Assembly: GCA_022600195.1 (NCBI GenBank)
Contig: JAHZKX010000049.1
Location: 62,001-126,000 of the forward strand
Direction: 5' to 3'
DNA: 64,000 nt
Source of the DNA: Planctomycetota bacterium
GTDB lineage: Bacteria; Planctomycetota; Planctomycetia; Planctomycetales; Planctomycetaceae
The notes beneath the pieces were generated by a model that saw only the letters and a program-made list of their open reading frames with translations, had not been told where the DNA came from and did not search any database. This document shows, piece by piece, positions 15,573-62,186 of the stretch (its first letter is position 1; each line of letters opens with the position of its first letter). The position numbers were made by a program, and so were the translations under genes.

Positions 15573-15842
15573 ATGCAAAGCGCAGAAGGTTGGCGTTCCA
15601 TCTTAGAAAACTGGCCAGAAGTCATTCCCAAACAGGGAATCGTGGTAACCACCTATCAGGAGTCCATTCCCTTTCAGAATTTTTTGCTTTCAAGTGGGAT
15701 CGTCTTGCTGGAACGCGATAAACCAGATTCACTGGGCGCACGAAAAGTGATGCTGTCGTACGAAGCCATCTGCGCGATTAAGCTGACTGATACCATGGAA
15801 CTGGCCCGCTATCAGGTGATGGGATTCCAGCCAACGACTTAG
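15573..15842 (+). CDS. Small hypothetical protein (89 aa)
   Basis: The start at 15573 is chosen because AAGAGA lies about 6 bases before it. The 89-residue product is soluble, with no signal or transmembrane segment. It alternates short strands and helices: GIVVTTYQESIPF, LLSSGIVLLERDKPDSLGARKVMLSYEAI. I do not recognise the family; the pattern could be a small beta-barrel or an SH3-like fold. Its stop codon is part of the first hairpin of a non-coding element that also follows the BON gene at 60967. The gene is therefore real in my view, but its function is unknown. Confidence 0.6.
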   Translation: MQSAEGWRSILENWPEVIPKQGIVVTTYQESIPFQNFLLSSGIVLLERDKPDSLGARKVMLSYEAICAIKLTDTMELARYQVMGFQPTT

Positions 15843-15940
15843 CCTGTCTCCAGGTTGACTGTAGCGTCTCCAAGGCCATTTGAAACGCGTATCGTAAAAT
15901 GGAAGGCGCTATGGTTAAATGGGAGTCGCGTTAGTCAATC
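15837..15940. repeat. Conserved structured element, copy A
   Basis: This segment aligns without gaps to 61195-61298 at about 70% identity by eye, with the longest exact block around GGCCATTTGAAACG (15874-15887). It starts at the stop codon of the small gene. Hairpin 1 is AGCCTG-tctc-CAGGTT (15841-15856, 6 bp with one G-U). Hairpin 2 is CCATTT (876-881 of the 15 kb block) with AAATGG (15897-15902) and an inner ACG/CGT. The outer arms 15840-15865 and 15908-15933 can also pair over much of their length with several G-U pairs. No T-run follows, so it is not a plain terminator. It could be a 3' RNA element, a small RNA or a repeat family. Confidence 0.6.
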
Positions 15941-15954
15941 AACGCAAACTCAGG

Positions 15955-16854
15955 TTAAGTGACCGACATCCAACGAGAAAGAACAAGCGTGGGGATCAGC
16001 AGTGCTGCAGTCAGGATTGCGTATTGTGGATTGGCTGTCCAGACAAAAACCATAATCGCGTTCAACATCACGTAGGAAGAAAGCATGGTTTTGACTGCGA
16101 TTTGTACATTTTGTGGTACCGGGTTTAAAATCGCCTGAACCAGACGCCGATTAATGGTCAACACGACTACTCCCACAGCCGCCAGTACCATGGACAAATT
16201 GATTTCTCGAGGCCAGGGATAAGTGGCCAGCATCCAGACCAGTGCGCCCAGCCCTGTATTAATCACGAGAGTACCACCAACCAGATGCCCACGGTGACTC
16301 TTTTTGGCTTCCATGCGTGCAAACCAGGTGAGCCCGACAATAAACAGACCCAGAGCAGCAGCAATGCGCAGCTGCGGCTTGACCCACAGATTAATTTCAC
16401 TCGCAACAGCACTGGCACCCAGCATGACATTCAAGAAACGACAAATGCCCATCATCAGTGGACCCAACACCGTTTTTTTCAGAATCATGTCATAACTCAG
16501 AATCGCAATCACCAGCAAACCAGCAACTATCAGACTCTGCTTACCGACAGTCTGCGCAGCGCCCACTCCGGCCAGCATCAGTAACCCACCTAAAACCGCA
16601 GCCTGCTGAGTGGAGATACGCCCGGAAGGAATCGGGCGAAAAGGACGTTCTTCGGCATCAACTTTCCGGTCGAAGACATCATTAAAGACCATTCCAGAAA
16701 GATATAAGCTGGCCGAAGCCACCAGCAGCAATGCGAATTGCAGGGGGAGCTCAAATGATCCATGTGTGAGCAAATAACCGAGAATAATATCTGACATCGC
16801 TGTGAAGACAGCGGGCAGCCGCATCAATTGAAAATAAGCGAGCCACTTTTTCAT
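15955..16854 (-). CDS. UbiA-family prenyltransferase (EboC-like)
   Basis: The 299-residue integral membrane protein has 8-9 helices and the UbiA signature NDVFDRKVDAEERPFRP near residues 57-73, whose Asp residues hold the Mg-diphosphate of the prenyl donor. The second Asp motif is less clear, around the SYDMILKKT loop. The family transfers prenyl chains to aromatic or polyol acceptors in the membrane. The start overlaps the end of the inositol-phosphate synthase gene by 4 bp (ATGA), so the proteins are made together. The acceptor may therefore be an inositol or cyclitol phosphate; that is inference. EboC of cyanobacterial export clusters belongs to the same superfamily. Confidence 0.85.
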   Translation of the reverse strand: MKKWLAYFQLMRLPAVFTAMSDIILGYLLTHGSFELPLQFALLLVASASLYLSGMVFNDVFDRKVDAEERPFRPIPSGRISTQQAAVLGGLLMLAGVGAAQTVGKQSLIVAGLLVIAILSYDMILKKTVLGPLMMGICRFLNVMLGASAVASEINLWVKPQLRIAAALGLFIVGLTWFARMEAKKSHRGHLVGGTLVINTGLGALVWMLATYPWPREINLSMVLAAVGVVVLTINRRLVQAILNPVPQNVQIAVKTMLSSYVMLNAIMVFVWTANPQYAILTAALLIPTLVLSRWMSVT

Positions 16855-60966: not shown

Positions 60967-61200
60967 ATGACTGTAGAGACGTATTCACAAAAAGCAAAAA
61001 CACTCTCACGAAAGATTGAACAGACGATCGCCTTACGTACGGGAAGTCAGGTTCAATCTCTAAAAGTGGACATTCTGGGGGAAATCGTCGTTCTTTCCGG
61101 GCGCACTGATTCCTTTTACCACAAGCAGCTTGCAACCCATGCCGCTTTAAGTGAAATCGATCAGTATGCGCTGACCAATAATATTCGTGTTGAACTCTAA
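60967..61200 (+). CDS. BON-domain protein (77 aa)
   Basis: AGGAGG lies 8 bases before the ATG, a strong site. The 77-residue product has the BON pattern: a helix (TYSQKAKTLSRKIEQTIALRTG-like), then strand VQSLKVDILGEIVVLSGRTDS, helix FYHKQLATHAAL and a final strand. BON domains bind phospholipid or other hydrophobic ligands. There is no signal peptide or transmembrane helix, so it is cytoplasmic. Its stop codon TAA overlaps the first hairpin of the conserved non-coding element that also follows the gene at 15573. Confidence 0.75.
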   Translation: MTVETYSQKAKTLSRKIEQTIALRTGSQVQSLKVDILGEIVVLSGRTDSFYHKQLATHAALSEIDQYALTNNIRVEL

Positions 61201-61298
61201 CCTGTGTCCAGGTTTACTGTCTCGCCTTCATGGCCATTTGAAACGAGTATCATCGATTGAAAGGCACTCTGGTCAAACGAGATCCATTCTAGTTGATT
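61195..61298. repeat. Conserved structured element, copy B
   Basis: This is the counterpart of 15837-15940. Hairpin 1 is AACCTG-tgtc-CAGGTT (61199-61214), a perfect 6-bp stem. Hairpin 2 is GCC-a-TTT (61233-61239) with AAA-GGC (61260-61265) and an inner CGA/TCG. The two copies differ in hairpin 1 mainly at a pair that is A-U here and G-U in copy A. It lies between the BON stop and the end of the convergent plsY gene. Confidence 0.6.
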
Positions 61299-61349
61299 AC
61301 CCGTTCCTGTAGGAAACAGGAACAGCTTCAGCAAACTCCCGTTAACGAA

Positions 61350-61421: not shown

Positions 61422-62186
61422 TTACACTTCTTCATCCACTTTCGTCTCAGATGAAGTGTTTTCCGCGCTCTTTCGGCTGCCAAACTGAAATTTCTTTTCT
61501 TCCCCCCGCATGATTCGTCCCAGATTGCTCCAGTGACGCACGACAATTAACAGCGGGACGGCAATACTGAAAACGGCAAGCCCCCATTTTTCCTGCGTGA
61601 AAGCAGAAGCCCCCAGCTGGATGAATTGCGCCACAGCAAAGGCAATGGCGGCAACAATGGAGCTAAGGGCCACAATTCTTGTAATCAGAAATGTCAGAGC
61701 AAAGGCGCCCACGGCAATCAATGTTGACCAGGGCCCCAGAACCAAGATCACTCCCAGACTGGTGGCAACACCTTTTCCACCCCGAAAACCAAGCCAGACT
61801 GGAAACATGTGACCGAGAATCGTAGCCACGCCACTCAAAACTCTTACCTGGTCAAACTGAGGAGAATCAGAAGTTACAAATAAAGTCGGAATGAATAATA
61901 CAGGAAGTAATCCCTTTAAGGCATCCAGTAGCAGAACAACTATCCCCCATTTTGCTCCCAACGTTCTTGCGACATTGGTTGCACCAATATTCCCGCTACC
62001 CACGTTGCGAATGTCGGTTCCTGCAACCAGTTTCGCTGTCAACAGGCCGAAGGGAATCGAACCGGTCAGATAGGAAGCCACGGCAACAAAAATCCAAAAA
62101 TAATCTGCAAACATGTGTTGGACAGTCTCGTATAATGCAAGGTGAGTCATTTCAGTAAAGAAACGGGCTGTGATGATACTCGACAT
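61422..62186 (-). CDS. plsY: Glycerol-3-phosphate acyltransferase PlsY
   Basis: PlsY adds an acyl group from acyl-phosphate to glycerol 3-phosphate in the inner membrane, the first step of phospholipid synthesis. The motif TGSIPFGLLTAKLVAGTDIRN and the following GSGNIGATNVARTLG are family signatures, and VWLGFRGGKGVATSLG is the acceptor-binding loop. About five transmembrane helices are seen. The protein is 254 residues, longer than the usual 200 or so. Starts at 62150 or 62114 would make it shorter; none has a strong ribosome binding site. The C-terminal tail is hydrophilic (Lys/Glu-rich). Confidence 0.9.
   Translation of the reverse strand: MSSIITARFFTEMTHLALYETVQHMFADYFWIFVAVASYLTGSIPFGLLTAKLVAGTDIRNVGSGNIGATNVARTLGAKWGIVVLLLDALKGLLPVLFIPTLFVTSDSPQFDQVRVLSGVATILGHMFPVWLGFRGGKGVATSLGVILVLGPWSTLIAVGAFALTFLITRIVALSSIVAAIAFAVAQFIQLGASAFTQEKWGLAVFSIAVPLLIVVRHWSNLGRIMRGEEKKFQFGSRKSAENTSSETKVDEEV

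Follow-up and report, generated by a model that had tools for sequence, protein, structure and literature searches.

A repeat that often ends on stop codons in planctomycete genomes is very probably a TA-bounded miniature transposon with IS630-type ends

Miniature transposons (MITEs) of the kind described here are already known from other bacteria. The nearest known kind in size and copy number is RUP of pneumococcus together with IS630-Spn1. RUP is a 107-bp intergenic repeat present in about 108–110 copies, with terminal repeats that resemble those of an IS630 element and with TA in its target (PMC2229807, PMC3049150). Insertion into TA with TA duplication has been obtained in vitro with ISY100 of the IS630 family (PMC2170065). 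Pseudomonas syringae carries MITEPsy1, a 100-nt MITE with CTAG or YTAA as its target, for which a 4-nt duplication and a tentative IS5 origin ('IS5?') have been reported (PMC3189936). The Correia or NEMIS elements of Neisseria measure about 107 or 155 bp and have 5'-TA termini and inverted repeats (PMC2229807). REPs of planctomycetes are mentioned in PMC3733652, in the text of which neither CTAG nor IS630 occurs.

Against this background, two stretches of the DNA studied here are very probably two copies of one non-autonomous miniature transposon, which measures about 90 bp, is bounded by TA and has ends of the IS630/Tc1-mariner type. This reading is carried by a family of copies, empty sites with TA duplication, an IS630-like right end and a conserved stop position. 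Its likeness to RUP lies in these described features, the host of RUP belonging to a different phylum. TA duplication is likewise found with ISY100 and the IS630/Tc1-mariner elements, which are autonomous, whereas the MITE described here codes for nothing. MITEPsy1 is alike in size and target and differs in its reported duplication and origin; the Correia elements differ in having 24-bp terminal repeats and in a 107-bp form for which fusions with reading frames are reported, whereas here no copy lies wholly within a predicted gene. Among titles and abstract openings, mostly of the non-subscription literature, we found no description of this repeat or of stop-codon insertion by IS630-type MITEs.

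The window, that is the whole stretch of 64,000 nucleotides that was analysed, contains two copies. Comparison of 15837–15940 with 61195–61298 gave 73 identical positions out of 104 (70%) without a gap, as the first-pass annotation had estimated by eye, and all remaining ungapped 104-mers of the window scored below 55/104 against copy 1 on either strand. The small plus-strand genes of 89 and 77 residues at whose stop codons the matches had been said to begin, and the convergent minus-strand frame said to follow each match, were all present. Alignment of the family refined the element bounds to 15839–15934 and 61197–61292, with TA at each end.

Copy 1 (15839..15934, plus strand) is a 96-column family unit with about 90 bp between the TAs. 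Its left TA (15840..15841) lies in the TAG stop (15840–15842) of the 89-aa gene (15573..15842, plus strand), and its right TA (15932..15933) is the target duplication. The 89-aa gene has no Pfam match and is present at the same place in 16 aligned relatives. The convergent frame (15955..16854, minus strand) presumably encodes a UbiA-type prenyltransferase, judging from its sequence. Copy 2 (61197..61292, plus strand) has its left TA at 61198..61199, within the TAA stop (61198–61200) of the 77-aa gene, and its duplicated right TA at 61290..61291; the family consensus at this stop reads TAG, as does the closest relative, G010. The product of the 77-aa gene (60967..61200, plus strand) is BON-like at 24.8 bits, under the Pfam cut-off of 27, and that of the convergent frame (61422..62186, minus strand) we take to be a PlsY-like protein. 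A short inverted repeat (GTTCCTGT...ACAGGAAC) occupies 61303–61323, 3' of copy 2. Since relatives that are free of the element have a similar inverted repeat soon past the stop codon of the 77-aa gene, insertion of copy 2 has shifted this possible terminator about 92 bp farther from that stop. CTAG is rare in the window (positions 1–64000): apart from those in the two MITE copies it occurs 11 times, and the trinucleotide counts predict 37.

Further copies were sought in the genome and in relatives. BLAST with copy 1 against its own genome (G000) at E≤10 returned 43 places, and a sequence-only profile built from an alignment of 39 copies, duplicates and truncated copies excluded, gave 57 matches in G000 at E<1e-4, including the two in the window. 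When 40 genomes were searched with this profile, all 17 genomes of the genus (G000 included) had at least one match, the number ranging from 1 to more than 100, with scoring limited to 104 candidates per genome; among the 23 genomes outside the genus, 22 had no match and one had a single marginal match (E=0.004). The element is short (about 90 bp), non-coding and present in many copies. A second subfamily (…CCATTTGGATCAAG…TTGGACGCG…) accompanies the main subfamily in G000 and in G015 (L016:1404-1499, L062, L360 and L361). Some copies stand in tandem with a 92-bp period, sharing one CTAG or TTAG and, wherever seen, in head-to-tail order: at L016 (G000 C20:104953-105138), at L007 and L010 (the ends of contigs C59 and C83), at G010 C371:6345-6531 and at L247 (G010 C328). 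The C20 pair joins two subfamilies, which suggests that a younger element landed in the terminus of one already present; other tandem copies look like duplications. Two contigs of the G000 assembly terminate within tandem arrays.

Relatives preserve the sites in the empty state. In G010, which does not carry copy 1, ACGACTTAG is followed at once by a flank as long as that in the window; the window itself reads ACGACTTAG, the element, TAG and then the flank. The site of copy 2 is filled in G010 and empty in the other 13 of the 14 relatives displayed, all 14 of which have the 77-aa gene. Further empty sites with TA duplication were found at other loci; at L149 the duplication fits less cleanly, the right TA being altered. 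TA stands at both element ends in 20 of 51 copies in G000 and in 35 of 40 in G014. In these 55 copies with TA on both sides, the reconstructed target is CTAG or TTAG in 49; counted one side at a time, the base to the right of the target TA is G in 52, and that to its left is C in 31 and T in 21. IS630 itself prefers CTAG. At the site equivalent to L149, where G000 and G010 carry the MITE, four other genomes (G014, G007, G011 and G005, at L222, L224, L225 and L226, respectively) have another insert, strongly palindromic and about 90 bp long, just past the stop codon. An integron attC site had been considered from the anatomy of the element and was abandoned on sight of the empty sites with TA duplication.

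Genome G001 contains a 1.03-kb element whose reading frames match HTH_Tnp_IS630 and DDE_3, and G016 holds its counterpart, the second frame being 98% identical; both ends of both elements read CTAGAGCGCATCACA. The right end of the MITE matches the two ends of the G001 element at 28/35 and 27/35 positions, a score reached by none of 2000 shuffles, and in G013 the right-end match to the IS630-like element spans 28 bp at 96%. The left end of the MITE has diverged further: it resembles the right end of the IS (equalled by 12 of 2000 shuffles for the G000 consensus and by none of 2000 for G014) and shows no match to the left end of the IS (equalled by 1184 and 184 of 2000, respectively). The two ends of the G000 consensus are themselves weakly alike (119/2000 shuffles as good). 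A scan for IS ends, which took in 54 of 80 fetched related IS loci and considered TA-bounded ends only, found TA-bounded inverted ends at 34 of the 54, in 33 of these starting with GA; the targets of the 34 were CTAG (19), TTAG (8), CTAA (6) and ATAA (1). When 17 DDE_3 loci from the genus were examined, MITE-like ends were seen only in the G001 and G016 elements and in a truncated one at L379. The genus is probably Gimesia, since a truncated transposase resembling that of G011 is present on two MAG contigs of Gimesia. The proposal in the first-pass annotation that the repeat is mobile and lands behind genes is therefore borne out by the 57 profile matches, the empty sites with TA duplication and the IS630-like right end.

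An autonomous partner was looked for in G000 and not found, no DDE_3 match being present in that genome at E≤1e-3. DDE_3 is missing from 8 of the 17 genus genomes, each of which has at least 22 copies of the MITE, and it is present in all four genomes with 1–2 copies; presence of the gene therefore does not follow MITE copy number. This absence, together with the weak match of the MITE left end to the IS, would suit mobilisation of a non-autonomous element by a transposase of another family. We regard that explanation as improbable: the right end is close to an IS630-like element, most clearly in G013, the TA duplication and the YTAR target fit IS630-like elements, and IS630-like relics exist in G007 and G014. 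The relic in copy-rich G007 (L389, C1:2649092-2649610) is an IS630-like element bounded by CTAG with a large internal deletion, plausibly a step on the path from IS to MITE, and that in G014 is a fragment. We read this pattern as loss or decay of the driver transposase in many hosts. A REP/RAYT repeat fits poorly, since the palindrome of that class spans 20–40 bp (PMC3733652) and the repeat described here measures about 90 bp and duplicates TA.

Mobilisation by an IS630-type transposase thus remains the preferred reading, and we infer it in the face of the weaker left-end match and with no matching transposase remaining in G000. The transposase, of IS630/Tc1-mariner type, would have been supplied in trans, and the element would have been inserted at a (C/T)TAG-type target with duplication of TA.

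A different reading takes the repeat for a cis-acting RNA element, a 3'-UTR structure or a terminator-like hairpin that spread for its function behind genes, much as the first-pass annotation had proposed an RNA element or a small RNA. The plus-strand consensus does form a long hairpin (z −2.14, 6 of 200 shuffles as good); in the stem of the G000 consensus, seven pairs depart from Watson-Crick pairing and each of them is G-U. RIBOSUM-scored RNAalifold on 139 copies gave the hairpin, at −41 kcal/mol for the plus strand and −31.8 kcal/mol for the opposite one. The fold of a single copy reached z −2.63 for copy 1 and only −0.74 for copy 2. Default RNAalifold, however, returned no consensus structure for 39 copies or for the plus strand of the 139, the consensus hairpin is not followed by a U-run, and an Rfam scan of the whole window at gathering thresholds gave 0 matches.

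Covariation was likewise divided. Pairs changed on both sides exceeded shuffles in two alignments, the second made up of 54 of the 139 aligned copies (10 against 5.9, reached by 22 of 500 shuffles, and 8 against 3.0, reached by 0 of 500), and columns 5 and 16 alternate between A-U and C-G among lineages. Against this, slid controls show equal or more double changes, the proportion of paired cells equals that of the shuffles (81.8% versus 81.8% and 87.0% versus 87.0%), and single changes in Watson-Crick stem pairs led to G-U 48 times and to A-C 60 times (p=0.29). The switch at columns 5 and 16 is lineage-diagnostic, and columns 5 and 84 behave nearly alike. Two small helices were set aside, that of columns 5–8/13–16 because its covariation is this same kind of lineage-diagnostic switch and that of columns 35–39/44–48 because it is broken in most G000 copies.

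Conservation lends the RNA reading slight help: in the 8 of 15 G000/G010 pairs that were taken as secure after the table had been viewed, the shared elements are slightly more conserved than their non-coding flanks (89.4% versus 85.6%, p=0.027), the coding flanks being 92.0% identical; over all 15 pairs the values are 86.5% for elements, 82.0% for non-coding flanks and 87.5% for coding flanks. Copies are found in convergent, co-directional and divergent gaps alike, which argues against the RNA reading. Taken with the missing default structure, the paired cells at the shuffled mean and the G-U and A-C counts, this makes the RNA reading very unlikely and leaves the proposal of the first-pass annotation without support. 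The probability that the two loci match by chance, or through a single duplication, is reduced to almost nothing by the 57 profile matches in G000 and the copies in every genus genome searched.

How general the stop-codon boundary is was addressed with gene calls from a simple codon-score script trained on 27 long frames of the window. The count in G000 used 51 distinct copies out of the 57 strong matches (52 rows, one repeating L016). None of these 51 copies, of the 40 in G014 or of 10 in G010 lies wholly within a predicted gene, and a few overlap a gene end. An element end falls exactly on a stop codon in 15 of the 51 G000 copies (left end in 12, right end in 5, both in 2); the left boundary at a stop codon that had been noted earlier is hence real in both window copies and holds for this fraction of the family rather than for all of it. 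With a null derived from one 64-kb window, the present one, which has 34 stop-codon TAs and 421 intergenic TAs, 7.5% would be expected (P=3e-6 for 15/51), and 11% if the null is restricted to YTAR sites (P=3e-4). In G014, 6 of 40 copies lie on a stop codon, which is not significant (P=0.075); the two genomes pooled gave 21/91 (P=3e-6 for all TAs and 9e-4 for YTAR sites).

For 13 of the 15 stop-codon copies, the stop has an identical position in one or more relatives that lack the element (copy 1, copy 2, L149, L067, L027, L140, L005, L008, L025 left, L061, L064, L065 and L146; L074 and L068 fall outside). Exceptions within this set are copy 1, where 4 of 16 relatives have a host gene shorter by one codon, L064, where G016 and G013 agree and G006 has no stop at that place, and L025, where in G006 the gene on the right extends three codons farther. 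At L149 the stop is TAA in element-free relatives and TAG in filled copies. At L008 the relative G002 has a single CTAG that provides the TAG stop of both convergent genes, and in G000, with the element present, each gene has its own stop, the right flank reading CTAT and the minus-strand stop still TAG. Both ends of the element have G directly after TA, so that a TAA or TAG that is hit is rebuilt as TAG, and it is for this reason that the stop position is preserved. The 12 left-end cases today comprise 8 TAG and 4 TAA, the latter where the first G of the element has become A. The stop-codon boundary is an effect of the insertion site.

When the element enters a TAA or TAG stop at its TA, in whichever orientation, that codon should accordingly read TAG again; the protein would stay as it was and the insertion could persist, and we infer that this silence explains the excess of stop codons among the insertion sites. 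Because a (C/T)TA(G/A) target and ends starting with G together recreate an amber stop whichever way the element lies, one may go further and suppose, tentatively and with more doubt than confidence, that stop codons serve this IS630 group and its MITEs as safe harbours, that selection has kept this combination of target and ends, and that the habit converts TAA to TAG, as seen at L149.

If the safe-harbour reading is true, an element could settle directly behind a coding sequence, even between convergent genes that share a CTAG stop, with the protein unaltered. What appeared to be a non-coding RNA becomes a mobile element with clear bounds, and silent occupation of gene ends would follow from a simple rule, namely that a TA target and a terminal G restore the stop. 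The rule could be examined wherever a genome carries IS630-type elements, and it is relevant to the evolution of stop codons, of overlapping gene ends and of hairpins between genes.
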